Shown: positions 17,241-23,388 of the stretch, piece by piece | Layout of the letters: each line of letters opens with the position of its first letter | Position numbering within the stretch: position 1 is the stretch's first letter | Source of the DNA: Schwartzia sp. (in: firmicutes) | GTDB taxonomy: Bacteria; Bacillota; Negativicutes; Selenomonadales; Selenomonadaceae | Length of the DNA stretch: 35,605 nt | Assembly (NCBI GenBank): GCA_017383125.1 | Contig: JAFNYY010000088.1 | Span: forward strand, 1-35,605 | Direction: 5' to 3' | Notes under the pieces: generated by a model | Databases searched by the model: none | What the model was told of the DNA's origin: nothing | Seen by the model: only the letters and a program-made list of their open reading frames with translations | Translations under genes and position numbers: made by a program

Positions 17241-17269
17241 TTGACAACATCTGCCTGTGAGTATATTAT
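17241..17269 (+). promoter_or_regulatory. Promoter of the trp leader
   Basis: TTGACA (17241-17246), 17-bp spacer, TATTAT (17264-17269). Transcription would begin near 17276, directly ahead of the T-box stem I. Confidence 0.75.
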
Positions 17270-17533
17270 TTTCCTAAATTGAGGCGAAAATTTAATACTA
17301 TAAATCAGTGAACGGGAAATAGTACTCCGATGTTCGAATGTTCAGCGAGCCGGTGTAGAGCATAGCTCTGGTGTGATGATCGGTCAGGAGAAGCGGATGA
17401 ATGGTCCCGGGAGAGTCCTCCGAAGGTTTTACTGTGTAGGCAGGAACGGAAGCCACCGTTATATGGCTGAGAGCATCGAGCCGATCAGGTTCCGTGTTCA
17501 ATAATGAAGGTTATTCATCGGGTGGTACAGCGA

Positions 17534-17573
17534 ATCCATTTCGTCCCGTAGGGGAGCGAAGTGGATGTTTTTT
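17534..17573 (+). terminator. T-box terminator 1
   Basis: Stem 17534-17547 with 17552-17566 (about 13 pairs, one G-U and one bulge), loop GTAG, then six T. The TTTCGTCCC strand is shared with antiterminator 1, so the two folds exclude each other. Confidence 0.88.
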
Positions 17574-17618
17574 ATTTTACCGGTGAATGATGAATTAGGG
17601 TGGTACCGCGATCCGTTT

Positions 17619-17668
17619 CGCCCCTGAAGCAAGGTTGTTATGCTGACGGGTGTCGGGGCGGTTTTTTT
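17619..17668 (+). terminator. T-box terminator 2
   Basis: CGCCCC (17619-17624) pairs with GGGGCG (17655-17660), then seven T. The long interior can form a second small hairpin AGCA/TGCT. The CGCCCC strand is shared with antiterminator 2. Confidence 0.85.
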
Positions 17669-17713
17669 GTTGACCGGAGTGGTTTGACCGGTGAATACCG
17701 GAGGGAGGTTTGT

Positions 17714-18325
17714 ATGCTGATAAAGATCTGCGGCATCAGAGATGTTGATGCTGCCCGTACCGCGGAGGATGCCGGGGCTGATTTCATCGGTTTCATTCTT
17801 TCCAAGGGATTCAGACGGACTATAGAGCCGGAAAAGGCGGCGGAGATCTGTCGTAGTGTTAAACGGGTGAAGAAGGTCGGGGTTTTTGTTGATGAGGCGG
17901 CCGAATATGTAAATGAGGCGGCGCGCCTCTGCGGTCTGGACTATGTTCAGCTTCATGGACATGAGACAGCGGAATATGCGGCGTCAATAAATTATCCCAT
18001 AATAAAGGCCATGCGCTACGGAGATGATTTCACAGCGGAGGCAGCCAACAGCTACCCGGCGGAGATGATTCTCGTTGACAGCTTTGCCAACGGCAAGGTG
18101 GGTGGCAGCGGCCAGGCCTTTGCCTGGCAGGAGGCAGCGGCAGAGACGGAGAAACTGAAAAAGCCGTTTCTGATTGCCGGAGGCATATCGAAGGAAAATG
18201 CCGACGAGGCAATGCGAATTTTTAATCCCGACGGGCTTGATGCTTCCGGCAGTCTGGAGGACGAGGATGGGAATAAGTCACCGGAAAAAATTCGTGAATA
18301 TCTGGGCGCTGTAAAAGGCAAATGA
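17714..18325 (+). CDS. trpF: Phosphoribosylanthranilate isomerase
   Basis: 203-aa TIM-barrel enzyme converting phosphoribosylanthranilate to CdRP in tryptophan synthesis. The catalytic Cys is in KICGIRD near the N-terminus; the general acid Asp is in LVDSFA, followed by the phosphate loop GKVGGSGQ. The active-site strand VQLHG is present. ATG 17714 follows GGGAGG by five bases; upstream in-frame sequence belongs to the T-box leader. The C-terminal phosphate-binding motif reads DASGSLE rather than the common DVSSGVE, a modest deviation. It is the first gene of the trp operon, an unusual position for trpF. Confidence 0.95.
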   Translation: MLIKICGIRDVDAARTAEDAGADFIGFILSKGFRRTIEPEKAAEICRSVKRVKKVGVFVDEAAEYVNEAARLCGLDYVQLHGHETAEYAASINYPIIKAMRYGDDFTAEAANSYPAEMILVDSFANGKVGGSGQAFAWQEAAAETEKLKKPFLIAGGISKENADEAMRIFNPDGLDASGSLEDEDGNKSPEKIREYLGAVKGK

Positions 18326-18391
18326 TACTTTATCGGGGCGTGGCTTGTAGAAGAAGTGAGCCTGCTCCGCAAAATAATGCAAGGTGATACG

Positions 18392-19183
18392 ATGAAAGAT
18401 ATTCTCGCAGAAATCGTAGAAAAGAAGCGGGCGGTTGTAGAGGCTGCCAGGGAACAGATGCCTTTAGACAGGCTCAAGGCAGAGCTGAAGCAGGGTACTC
18501 ATCGGGCGGCTGAGGTTCTGGAGGCGGCGGACTTCTCTCTGATTGCCGAATGTAAGCTCAATTCACCAGCCAAGGGTCGCCTCTGCAGGCGCTACGAGGT
18601 CACGGAGCTGGCAAAGATATACAGTGAAAACGGAGCAGCAATGCTTTCAGTTCATACCGATTCACATTTCCTCGGACGAAATGAGGATATTCCGGCAGTT
18701 AAGGCCATAACGGAGCTGCCCGTAATGCGCAAGGAGTTCATCATAGATGAATACCAGATTTACGAAGCGCGATGGCTTGGGGCTGATGCAGTGCTTCTGA
18801 TTGCCAGAATTCTTACCGGTGAGCAGCTGAAAGAATTTTTGGATATTACGCACCGGCTGGGGATGGATGCACTTATCGAGGTTCACGATGAAGACGATAT
18901 TGATAAGGCATTGGCAACCTCCGGGAAATTTATCGGGGTGAATAACCGCAATCTGAAAACATTTATTACATCCATCGATAATACTCTGGAGCTGCTGCCG
19001 TATATCAGAGAGCGTGACAAGCTGAAGGGTAGAGTTCTCATCAGTGAAAGCGGCGTGCAGAACAGAGCCGATGCCGAAAAGCTCCGGCTGGCAGGATGCC
19101 GCGGCGTGCTGGTAGGAGAGGGGCTTGTGGTAGCTGAGGATGTGGGAGCTATGACAAGAGAAATAGCTGCAGCCGGAAAATAA
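18392..19183 (+). CDS. trpC: Indole-3-glycerol phosphate synthase
   Basis: 263-aa TIM-barrel enzyme that closes the indole ring from CdRP. The start is ATG 18392 behind AAGGTGA; the frame reaches an upstream GTG at 18356 without a ribosome site. Catalytic elements are visible: AECK and SPAKG, MRKEF (common form LRKDF), EVHDE, VNNRNL and ISESG. The stretch SVHTDSHFLGRNEDI differs from the common SVLTEPxxFxGSL, so the enzyme is divergent but looks complete. It follows trpF after 66 bases. Confidence 0.94.
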   Translation: MKDILAEIVEKKRAVVEAAREQMPLDRLKAELKQGTHRAAEVLEAADFSLIAECKLNSPAKGRLCRRYEVTELAKIYSENGAAMLSVHTDSHFLGRNEDIPAVKAITELPVMRKEFIIDEYQIYEARWLGADAVLLIARILTGEQLKEFLDITHRLGMDALIEVHDEDDIDKALATSGKFIGVNNRNLKTFITSIDNTLELLPYIRERDKLKGRVLISESGVQNRADAEKLRLAGCRGVLVGEGLVVAEDVGAMTREIAAAGK

Positions 19184-19261
19184 AATAGGAAATAAACTAC
19201 TTTGCAACTAATTAAACGATGGTATTATCGATTTCGACAGAAATAACGAGATCTGATATCA

Positions 19262-19290
19262 TTGGACTGTTTTAGTAGTTCATTTAGATA
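19262..19290 (+). promoter_or_regulatory. Possible internal promoter before trpB
   Basis: TTGGAC (19262-19267), 17-bp spacer, TAGATA (19285-19290) in the 140-base AT-rich gap between trpC and trpB, the largest gap inside the trp genes. Both boxes are imperfect. Confidence 0.33.
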
Positions 19291-19323
19291 AAAGGTTTAA
19301 TCATAAAAAGTGGGGGATATAAA

Positions 19324-20502
19324 ATGGCAACTAAAAGATTTGGTAAGTACGGCGGACAGTATGTACCTGAGACGGTAATGCCTGTCCTGAACGAACTGGA
19401 AGATGCTTATGATAAGTACAAGGATGACCCGCAGTTTATCGCTGACTTCAAGCGTATCCTGAAGGAGTATGCAGGTCGTCCGTCCATGCTCTACTATGCC
19501 GAGAAGCTCACGAAGCATTACGGCAAGGCAAAGATTTTCCTGAAGCGTGAAGATTTGCTCCATACCGGTGCTCATAAGATTAATAATGCCCTTGGTCAGG
19601 CCATCCTGGCCAAGCGCATGGGTAAGGAATGCATCATCGCCGAGACCGGTGCCGGCCAGCACGGCGTTGCTTCCGCTACCGTAGCCGCACTGTTCGGCTT
19701 CAAGTGCAAGGTTTTCATGGGCAAGGTGGATGTTGAGCGTCAGAAACTCAATGTATTCCGCATGAAGCTGCTGGGTGCAGAGGTTATCCCTGTTGAGGGC
19801 GGTTCCGGCACTCTTAAGGATGCCATGAATGAGGCAATCCGTTATTGGGCTGCCCATGTAGATGATACCTATTACCTCATCGGCACTGTTGCCGGTCCGG
19901 CTCCCTATCCTGAGCTGGTTCGCGATTTCCAGAAGGTTATTGGCGAGGAGATTCGTGAGCAGGTAAAGGAACAGGCCGGCGGCCGCGTAGATTATCTGGT
20001 TGCCTGTGTAGGCGGCGGCTCCAATGCTATGGGTACCTTCTATGAATTCCGCAATGATAAAGATGTAAAGAAGTTCGGTGTAGAGGCTGCCGGTAAGGGC
20101 ATGGATACCGATGAGCACGCCCTGACTCTGGAGAAGGGCCGTCCCGGTGTTCTCCATGGTGCATACAGCTATCTGCTGCAGGACGATGACGGTCAGGCAC
20201 TGGAGGCATACTCCATTTCCGCCGGTCTCGACTATCCGGGCGTTGGCCCCGAGCATTCCTACTTCAAGGATGCTGGCATTGTTGACTATGTAGGTATTTC
20301 TGATGATGAGGCTCTGGCAGCCTTCCGCCGTGTATCTGAGCTTGAGGGTGTCATCCCGGCAGTAGAAAGCTCTCATGCATTGGCATATCTTGAGAAACTC
20401 ATGCCCACCACCAAGGAGGATGAGGTTGTTGTCGTCTGCCTCTCCGGCCGCGGCGACAAGGATGTTCAGATGGTAGCAAAGGTACTGGGGGAGGAGATTT
20501 GA
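19324..20502 (+). CDS. trpB: Tryptophan synthase beta subunit
   Basis: 392-aa PLP enzyme that joins indole and serine. The PLP lysine lies in [13 protein letters not shown] (Lys ~85), the catalytic region ETGAGQHG follows, and GGGSNAMG binds the cofactor phosphate. Length is standard for TrpB1. A GGGGG site precedes the ATG. Arginine codons are almost all CGT/CGC, unlike trpF, indicating strong expression-type codon bias. trpA starts one base after its stop. Confidence 0.97.
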
Positions 20503-20503
20503 A

Positions 20504-21295
20504 ATGAATCGCATTGACAGTAAATTTCAGGAACTGAAGGCCGCTAAGAAAAAGGGCCTCGTAATCTTCATTACCGCCGGTGCCCCGGATATTGAATCTA
20601 CAATCGCAGCTGTAAAGATGGCAGAGGCAAATGGTGCGGATGCCATAGAGCTGGGCATTCCTTTCTCCGATCCTATGGCCGATGGCCCTATCATCCAGAG
20701 GTCTTCCTTCGAGGCCATCAAGAAGGGCATGACTGTAAAAAAGCTTATTGCTCTCGTAAAGGAAATTCGCACCTTTACCAACATCCCCATTCTTGCTATG
20801 GGTTATCTTAACAATCTTCTTAATTACGGTCTTAATGATTTCTTCGCCGATGCTAAGGCAGCCGGTCTGGACGGACTCATTCTTCCGGATGTTCCTCACG
20901 AAGAATCGGCAGAGCTTCGCGAGCTCGGTGACAAGCTTGATATGCCCATCGTTGAGTTCGTTACCCCCGGAACTGTACCCCGCCGCATTACCGAGACCTG
21001 CGTTAATGCAAAGGGCTTCATCTACTGCGTATCGGTCAACGGTGTTACCGGTGTCCGCAAGATAGACTACGGCCCCATCGGCAAGGTTGCCCAGTCTGTG
21101 CGGGAGCAGAGCAGTGTTCCGGTAGCTGTCGGCTTTGGTATCGGCTCCGGAGAGGCTGCCGTAGAAGCCGCCGCTCACGCTGATGCAGTCATCGTCGGCT
21201 CCGCAGTATTAAAGAAGCTGCTGGAAAATGACATGGATGCTGCTGCTGGCATTGTTTCCGAGATACGCACTGCTTTGGACAAGGCGTATAACTAA
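20504..21295 (+). CDS. trpA: Tryptophan synthase alpha subunit
   Basis: 263-aa TIM-barrel subunit that cleaves indole-3-glycerol phosphate to indole. Signatures: FITAGAPD, the catalytic Glu in ELGIPFSDP, Asp in the DGLILPDVP strand, and phosphate loops GVTGVR and GFGIGSG. It is tightly coupled to trpB and shares its CGC-rich arginine codon use. A terminator follows 12 bases after the stop. Confidence 0.97.
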   Translation: MNRIDSKFQELKAAKKKGLVIFITAGAPDIESTIAAVKMAEANGADAIELGIPFSDPMADGPIIQRSSFEAIKKGMTVKKLIALVKEIRTFTNIPILAMGYLNNLLNYGLNDFFADAKAAGLDGLILPDVPHEESAELRELGDKLDMPIVEFVTPGTVPRRITETCVNAKGFIYCVSVNGVTGVRKIDYGPIGKVAQSVREQSSVPVAVGFGIGSGEAAVEAAAHADAVIVGSAVLKKLLENDMDAAAGIVSEIRTALDKAYN

Positions 21296-21307
21296 CTGTA
21301 TATGGGA

Positions 21308-21332
21308 GGGCGGTCTCTGGCCGCCCCTTTTT
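21308..21332 (+). terminator. Intrinsic terminator between trpA and trpE
   Basis: Stem GGGCGG (21308-21313) / CCGCCC (21321-21326), 7-nt loop, then C and five T. It ends only nine bases before the trpE ATG, so it splits the trp genes into two expression levels or acts as an attenuator. Confidence 0.82.
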
Positions 21333-21341
21333 GTGAAAATT

Positions 21342-22832
21342 ATGAAAACTATACCATCTCGTGAGGACTTTATTACCCTCGCAAAAGACTCAAATATCAT
21401 TGCTGTTTCTACAGAGCTGTTCAATGACCTCGATACACCGGTGTCCGTTTACTACAAGCTGGTGGGAGAGGAAACGGGCTTCCTGCTGGAGTCTGTAGAG
21501 GTAAATCAGAAATATGGCCGTTACTCCTTTATCGGGGCTGAACCCTTCATCAGATTGGAGGTATATGCCGATCAGCTGATGATGGAGCAGAACGGACGCA
21601 TGCGCTGCTACGAGGGTGCTCCTGTTGACACCATCAAGCGCTTCATGGCGAAGTTTAGTGCGCCGACTACGGAAAAGCCGCTGCCACTGATTAACGGTGG
21701 CGTTATCGGCTATCTGAATTACGATATTGTTGCCACCTTCGACCGGGTACGGGGACTTGATCTGGGGGAGGGAGACCTTCTCGGACAGTTTATGATGTGC
21801 CGTCAGCTGGTAATGTTTGATCAGCTTCGTCATACGACAAGGCTGGTCTATATGGCTGAAACAGATGGGACAGATGCCGGAGCCGTCTATGACAAGGCGG
21901 TGGAAGCTCTGAAGAAAACAGAGGAGAAGCTGGCAGCTCCGCTGGAGAATATTCATCAGTACAATGAGCCGAGGCAGGACAAGCTGGACTTTCTTGCCAG
22001 ATACGGTGAAATGACGGAGTCCTTTGATAATATTATTAAGAGCTGCCGTGACCACATTATCGCCGGCGACATATTCCAGATTGTCCCCAGCCAGCAGTTC
22101 CGTGAGAAGATTACACAACCGCCCTTTACCTTCTATCGACGGCTGAGACAGGCCAATCCTTCTCCGTATATGTTCTACCTGAACTTCGGTGAGACGAAGC
22201 TGGTGGGTGCATCACCTGAGATGCTGGTACGGGTAGCTGGTGATGAGCTGACTACTTATCCTATCGCCGGTACCCGCCGCCGCGGAGCGAATGATGCGGA
22301 GGACGAAGCTCTGATGGCTGACCTTCTGCAGGATGAAAAGGAATGCGCCGAGCATTCTATGCTGGTAGACCTTGCCCGCAACGATATTGGCCGCATCAGT
22401 GAAGCCGGCAGCGTCCGCGTCACAAAGCTGAAGGTCATAGAGAAGTTCTCCCATGTCATGCACATGGTTTCCGAAGTAAAGGGAAAGAAGAAGCCCGAGT
22501 ATACCCCGATGGATGTATTGAAGGCCTGCTTCCCGGCGGGAACGGTCAGCGGAGCGCCGAAGCTCCGGGCCATGGAAATAATCAACGAGCTGGAGGCTGT
22601 CCGCCGCAACGCCTATGCCGGTATCGTCGGCTATCTTGATTTTGACGGCAATATGGATACCTGCATCACCCTTCGTACTATGCGTATAGAAGGAGACGAG
22701 GCAATAATTCAGGCCGGAGCCGGTATCGTTTACGATTCTGTAGCCATCAATGAATACAGGGAAATCCTGCAGAAGGCAAAGGTATTGTTCGGAATCGTCG
22801 AGGAGGTGGAGAATAATGCTGTTGCTCCTTGA
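21342..22832 (+). CDS. trpE: Anthranilate synthase component I
   Basis: 496-aa chorismate-using subunit that forms anthranilate with ammonia supplied by TrpG. The N-terminal allosteric LLES motif (FLLESVE) and RYSFIG indicate tryptophan feedback control. The C-terminal chorismate domain shows GDIFQIVPSQQF, LVGASPEML, PIAGTRRRG, LVDLARNDIGR, FPAGTVSGAPK and GAGIVYDS. The start is taken at ATG 21342 (an in-frame GTG lies at 21333). Neither has a normal ribosome site; the nearest purine-rich stretch, GGGAGGG, is at 21304-21310 on the far side of the terminator hairpin. It overlaps trpG by 17 bases. Confidence 0.96.
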   Translation: MKTIPSREDFITLAKDSNIIAVSTELFNDLDTPVSVYYKLVGEETGFLLESVEVNQKYGRYSFIGAEPFIRLEVYADQLMMEQNGRMRCYEGAPVDTIKRFMAKFSAPTTEKPLPLINGGVIGYLNYDIVATFDRVRGLDLGEGDLLGQFMMCRQLVMFDQLRHTTRLVYMAETDGTDAGAVYDKAVEALKKTEEKLAAPLENIHQYNEPRQDKLDFLARYGEMTESFDNIIKSCRDHIIAGDIFQIVPSQQFREKITQPPFTFYRRLRQANPSPYMFYLNFGETKLVGASPEMLVRVAGDELTTYPIAGTRRRGANDAEDEALMADLLQDEKECAEHSMLVDLARNDIGRISEAGSVRVTKLKVIEKFSHVMHMVSEVKGKKKPEYTPMDVLKACFPAGTVSGAPKLRAMEIINELEAVRRNAYAGIVGYLDFDGNMDTCITLRTMRIEGDEAIIQAGAGIVYDSVAINEYREILQKAKVLFGIVEEVENNAVAP

Positions 22833-23388
22833 TAACTATGACTCCTTTACCTACAATGTTTACCAGCTGCTGTGCCAGCTGGGGGCGGAGGTAGAAGTTA
22901 TCCGAAATGACTGCACTACTGTAGAGGAGATTCGTAAGAAAAACTACGAGGCAATCGTTCTCTCTCCCGGTCCCGGTGTTCCTTCTGATGCCGGCATTAC
23001 CGAGGATGTCATCAGAGAGCTGAAGGGAGAGGTTCCGATACTTGGAATCTGCCTCGGTCATCAGGCCATCGGCGAGGTATTCGGCGGCAGGGTAATCGGT
23101 GCCGGAGCCATCGTCCACGGCAAGACCTCCCGGATAAAGCACTGCGGCAGTGGCTGCTATGAGGGGCTGCCTCAGTCCATGGAGATTGGCCGCTATCACT
23201 CTCTGATTGTGGAGAGGGCCAGCCTTCCGGATTGCTTTGAGGTGACGGCAGAGCTGGAGGACGGCATGATAATGGGTCTCCGTCATAAGGAATATGATAT
23301 CGAAGGAATGCAGTTCCATCCGGAATCAATTCTCACTCCGCTAGGCTATAAGCTGATGGAGAACTTCCTGAAACGAATAAAGAAATGA
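22816..23388 (+). CDS. trpG: Anthranilate synthase component II (glutamine amidotransferase)
   Basis: 190-aa class I amidotransferase that releases ammonia from glutamine for TrpE. The nucleophile Cys is in LGICLGHQAIG, and the His-Glu pair is in FHPES. The start is ATG 22816, preceded by GGAGGTGGAG inside the end of trpE; the longer upstream frame is trpE sequence read out of phase. It might also serve para-aminobenzoate synthesis (PabA), as in some Firmicutes. Its stop overlaps the next ATG by ATGA. Confidence 0.95.
   Translation: MLLLLDNYDSFTYNVYQLLCQLGAEVEVIRNDCTTVEEIRKKNYEAIVLSPGPGVPSDAGITEDVIRELKGEVPILGICLGHQAIGEVFGGRVIGAGAIVHGKTSRIKHCGSGCYEGLPQSMEIGRYHSLIVERASLPDCFEVTAELEDGMIMGLRHKEYDIEGMQFHPESILTPLGYKLMENFLKRIKK

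Follow-up and report, generated by a model that had tools for sequence, protein, structure and literature searches.

The window analysed here is a 35,605-nucleotide stretch of DNA (contig JAFNYY010000088.1) from a Selenomonadaceae MAG (1.76 Mb, 134 contigs, 84% complete), and it carries a tRNA-Trp T-box leader (17297-17668) upstream of the tryptophan biosynthesis genes trpF-C-B-A-E-G (17714-23388). The parts of the leader are listed in Table 1. trpD is absent from this operon and was found on another contig (C97). The extra hairpin located between the Stem IIA/B element and the discriminator apparently retains its pairing, with altered bases, in the relative G116.

Table 1 Features of the trp leader and of the first gene of the operon (window coordinates).
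Feature	Position	Strand	Basis
Sigma-70-type promoter, TTGACA-17 nt-TATTAT	17241..17269	+	consensus matches 11/12
Stem I, sole copy	17300..17418	+	RF00230 alignment; sequence
Specifier UGG (Trp)	17402..17404	+	aligned to RF00230 specifier position; letters checked
Stem II and Stem IIA/B element	17419..17468 (approximate limits)	+	RF00230 alignment
Extra hairpin GAGCAUCGAGCC / GGUUCCGUGUUC	17471..17499	+	direct sequence reading
Split Stem III (proposed), 5' strand GUUAUUCAUCGG	17510..17521	+	native-sequence MFE pairing with 17580-17591; comparative tests
Antiterminator 1, T-box bulge UGGUACA (17523-17529)	17519..17548	+	folding
Terminator 1 and U-run	17534..17572	+	-21.4 kcal/mol, z -5.3
Split Stem III (proposed), 3' strand CCGGUGAAUGAU, then GAA (17592-17594)	17580..17591	+	MFE fold
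Antiterminator 2, T-box bulge UGGUACC (17601-17607)	about 17596..17626	+	folding
Terminator 2 and U-run	about 17613..17668	+	-19.3 kcal/mol
trpF, first gene of the operon	17714..18325	+	NCBIfam

The T-box architecture (Stem I, Stem II and IIA/B upstream of the T-box) was recovered by the alignment to RF00230, which covers model positions 1-219 (E 3.4e-19), includes the second T-box and carries the first antiterminator/terminator module (module 1) within a 109-nt insert. The score was 85.8 bits over 17299-17628 here and 91.8 in the relative G116, below the gathering cut-off of 93 (a threshold of the database, not a feature of the mechanism), because module 1 is counted as an insert. Double-module T-boxes are probably under-annotated, since Rfam-style models undercall or misread such leaders. 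The tRNA-Trp of the genome has the anticodon CCA and the 3' end GCCA; both T-box bulges present UGGU to this end, the last pair being U-G, and a U at that bulge position is frequent in Trp T-boxes (PMC7778990). The tryptophan specificity proposed in an earlier note on this DNA thus agrees with the UGG specifier, the trp genes downstream and the tRNA.

Two T-box cores, TGGTACAGCG (17523-17532) and TGGTACCGCG (17601-17610), are the only ones in the leader and lie 78 nt apart; taken by itself, so short a core does not reach significance in the 35-kb window (3 found vs 1.4 expected), whereas its context does. The antiterminators fold with -8.3 kcal/mol (module 1, 17519-17548) and -9.4 kcal/mol (module 2, about 17596-17626), and are followed by the terminator hairpins T1 (17534-17566, -21.4 kcal/mol, z -5.3, U6 tail) and T2 (about 17613-17661, -19.3 kcal/mol, z -1.5, U7 tail). 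In each module the antiterminator and the terminator after it use a common strand (the 5' strand of the terminator), so that the two structures are predicted to be mutually exclusive, as the earlier note had held. Its claim of one tryptophan specifier stem was also upheld: RF00230 aligns a single Stem I (UGG at 17402-17404), and the hidden second specifier stem that the note named as a possible objection was looked for in the leader and not found. A second Stem I was rejected on length as well, the spacer between T1 and T-box 2 (about 20-25 nt) being too short to hold it, just as the note had argued. The leader is therefore not a pair of tandem complete T-boxes.

Equivalence of modules 1 and 2 as complete switches was not supported, the full Stem III-AA geometry being found here only in module 2. 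In the genus of the window the bases before T-box 1 read UUCAUCG, lacking the AA that normally follows Stem III, and the local hairpin there is weak (-1.2 kcal/mol); T-box 2 is preceded by AA at 17593-17594 and by a predicted helix between 17510-17521 and 17580-17591. What had been described as two complete modules consequently stands as two serial antiterminator/terminator pairs, the first of them lacking the AA and a stable Stem III. Since module 2 has both, the two checkpoints are probably unequal, with module 1 as the weaker one and module 2 as the canonical discriminator. Possession of a Stem III and AA by every unit is not known to define T-boxes whose terminator-antiterminator units are duplicated.

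Stem III is indispensable to the discriminator (motif RRRxG-StemIII-AA), and an antiterminator alone cannot appreciably bind tRNA (PMC7583486), so module 2 would need a Stem III. The MFE structure of the native segment 17505-17630 (-48.9 kcal/mol, z -3.85) pairs 17510-17521 with 17580-17591 around T1, followed by GAA and antiterminator 2, and mirrors the layout of a single-module leader with module 1 as the loop of Stem III. For the duplex of the window itself, significance was only nominal with a 30-nt query (p 0.013) and absent with a 60-nt query; the case for a split Stem III therefore rests on comparison with other leaders.

To build the comparison set, 84,980 species were searched for pairs of T-box cores spaced 52-112 nt apart and with an intervening TTTT, which gave at least 117 stretches. 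After removal of false matches and addition of the trpF loci of the family, the set comprised at least 115 leaders, grouped into 47 clusters (78% identity). Ten pattern matches were dropped (L014, L018, L021, L026, L052, L058, L082, L095, L101, L102) because they lay in coding sequence, had no T-box context or were truncated. Compact double modules were found in 93/380 genomes (45/102 genera) of the bacterial class to which the window belongs, and the reversed control pattern had no match. The genes downstream, read from translated starts except for those compared with the Trp proteins of the window, were among the leaders listed mostly sodium:solute symporters, then trpF (in the family of the window); others were asnS-like, trpE (Clostridium and others), serC-like, genes for amino-acid ABC binding proteins and further genes.

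The 35 nt before T-box 1 and the spacer before T-box 2 are complementary across the 47 clusters (mean z -1.55, t -6.9, combined p 1.7e-14, against dinucleotide shuffles), and five control windows in the same test were null. When module 1 was replaced by a linker, the expected cross pairs were 12.3 vs 7.3 for shuffles (Wilcoxon p 6.8e-6). Covariation pointed the same way: in the symporter-gene clade 94% of the cells were paired vs 20-51% when the arms were slid, and alignment column 14 changes together with both 3' arms; in the asnS-like clade the second arm likewise pairs with the loop of the first hairpin, with values of 94% vs 31-46%. These structure-based alignments are partly biased in favour of the structure. 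For the asnS-like arms, hand-trimmed sequences replaced a MAFFT alignment that had misplaced two rows. Unsupervised RNAalifold gave the same cross-module helix in several clades. AA stands at -6/-5 of T-box 2 in 38/47 clusters vs 2-19% at neighbouring offsets. In the trp leaders of six genera the helix lies in the same place with differing sequences, and in most of them it ends about 5-8 nt before T-box 2. No alternative helix was found in some clusters (for example L030, L069, L071, L084, L118). A fixed-window duplex test was weak, its positive control failing because the windows had cut the arms, and a swapped-partner test, confounded by base composition, was not relied on.

Building on what was computed here (a single Stem I, two modules and a conserved cross-module helix), we consider it probable that the leader is a transcriptional tRNA-Trp T-box with a partly duplicated expression platform, in which module 1 is looped out by a split Stem III and both checks are made serially. 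Uncharged tRNA-Trp would dock on the single Stem I and antiterminator 1 would form, T1 otherwise stopping transcription. Once the polymerase is past T1, the spacer (17580-17591) would pair back with 17510-17521, looping out module 1 and creating a Stem III immediately upstream of antiterminator 2. T-box 2 would thereby be placed like the T-box of a single-module leader, and the same docking site would be interrogated again with the docked tRNA or a newly docked one. The polymerase would thus meet the two modules serially, and the trp genes would be expressed only when both have been passed. We infer that the helix forms during transcription and that one docked (or newly docked) tRNA is read twice; the split Stem III would probably account for the control of two modules by one docking stem. 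Its overlap with helix A1 of antiterminator 1 amounts to at most 3 bases, so that the helix might compete with module 1 instead of merely stacking on it; its formation could also help to free the tRNA end from T-box 1. Two serial checks would lower leakage (basal read-through) and steepen the response, and an effect of this kind has already been proposed for double T-boxes generally (PMC9413887).

The trpF leaders of related genomes bear on an alternative that we regard as unlikely, in which module 2 alone provides the tRNA switch. Module 1 would then be a remnant, or a constitutive partial terminator that lowers basal expression, and the helix would do no more than neutralise the insert. Besides the absence of the AA and of a stable Stem III from module 1 in the window, this alternative draws on three kinds of relatives: those of genera g3, g19 and g20, in which module 1 has a shortened or altered bulge and a retained, still strong terminator; G132 (g18), which has lost module 1; and the nine genera with one module upstream of trpF (g2, g8, g15, g16, g21, g22, g23, g24, g27). 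Against it, UGGC was kept in g3, g19 and g20, that is, the UGGN is retained in module 1 even where the remainder diverged; both modules are intact in the two genomes of the window's genus (g1; G000 and G116) and are present in g5 (G023) and in most of g18; and a constitutive terminator as strong as -21 kcal/mol would shut down the operon almost completely if no antiterminator worked against it. The earlier note had named relatives with only one module and a decayed second copy as counting against its reading; here the relatives gave a mixed picture, with the many single-module leaders, the loss in G132 and the altered module 1 of g3, g19 and g20 on one side and the intact modules of the window's own genus on the other. 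In g6 and several further genera of the family, trpF had no T-box directly before it. In a TrpF+TrpC tree the double or altered leaders fell in g1, g3+g5, g18, g19 and g20, a supported 15-row clade was entirely single-module, and G132 was placed as a loss inside g18; the backbone was unresolved, and one gain vs several losses of module 1 were not distinguished.

Three further observations were made on these trpF leaders. That of G188 (L132) is seemingly reduced to a promoter and a terminator hairpin, Stem I and the T-box being gone. The single-module leaders of g24 (G177) and g15 (G123, G124) have an unusually long loop in the hairpin before the T-box. The loop in G177 contains CCGUGGCGCGG, possibly a relic of module 1.

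The cross-module complementarity could also be a by-product, without a role, of the duplication of the 3' arm of Stem III, arms 1 and 2 being visibly alike in several clusters. We judge this improbable: the arms have diverged with compensatory change, arm 2 of the trp leaders is not copied from arm 1, but pairing occurs in six genera whose sequences differ, and the helix is present in the native MFE structure. Two independent switches, with a different tRNA molecule for each antiterminator and the second one working without a Stem I, would accord with the two full T-box cores and their acceptor-pairing sequences, but are very improbable given that an antiterminator alone hardly binds tRNA (PMC7583486), that the second Stem I is missing and that the spacer is just 20-25 nt long.

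Leaders with three or four modules and one upstream arm were found in L120, L077, L261, L262 and L112; L120 (Lysinibacillus xylanilyticus), L077 (Priestia taiwanensis) and L261/L262 (g52) resemble the window in having one upstream 5' arm and several 3' arms and modules, and differ from it in their greater number of modules and in the genes that they precede. In L261 and L262 the same 5' arm forms a more stable pairing with arm 3 (-17.3 kcal/mol) than with arm 2 (-9.7 kcal/mol). In leaders of the other topology the single 5' strand of Stem III can pair with a 3' strand before T-box 1 and later with another before T-box 2. We tentatively extend the split Stem III to an RNA ratchet, an idea about which we are slightly more doubtful than convinced, in which one 5' strand re-pairs serially with the 3' arm of every successive module. 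Each re-pairing would loop out the module already used and offer the following T-box to the tRNA still docked on Stem I, so that one site would be read twice, three times or four times.

Vitreschak et al. reportedly described in 2008 (in RNA) T-boxes in which the terminator-antiterminator elements are duplicated. The window is like them in having one specifier stem and two serial antiterminator/terminator units (a single Stem I with two modules 78 nt apart); a probable Stem III split across module 1 is documented for the window. The earlier note's caution that the class is not wholly new is therefore justified, the duplication being known and compact double modules being present in almost a quarter of the class genomes scanned. 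Single-module trp leaders of the same family (g21, g22 and others) have Stem I, the specifier, IIA/B and the T-box as in the window, and, also as in the window, a hairpin whose end lies some 6 nt upstream of the T-box, but no module 1 inside the loop of that hairpin. Bacillota trp operons can also carry tandem complete T-boxes, with two or three full sensor-plus-platform units (PMC12452182); these share with the window the serial tRNA-Trp-responsive terminators before trp genes, whereas the window has a single Stem I. The window is thus a member of a widespread, known class, and the proposed split Stem III is its interesting part. No earlier mention of a shared or split Stem III was found in the literature searched, the key 2008 and 2009 papers lying outside that search. 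Partial T-box duplications pose the question of how one tRNA docking stem controls two or more distant switches; a shared split Stem III offers a concrete answer that can be tested. It accounts for how a second antiterminator could function when no Stem III is formed locally, and it would apply to numerous leaders of Negativicutes and Clostridia, those with three or four modules included.

The loop of T2 contains, at 17632-17646, a near copy (13/15) of the start region of trpF (17706-17720, AGGTTnnTATGCTGA), which gives a short open frame running across T2. A further ACCGGTGAAT copy lies after T2 (17684-17697); it is not kept in G116, and in the window it can form CCGGU-GAAU-ACCGG beside the ribosome-binding site of trpF.
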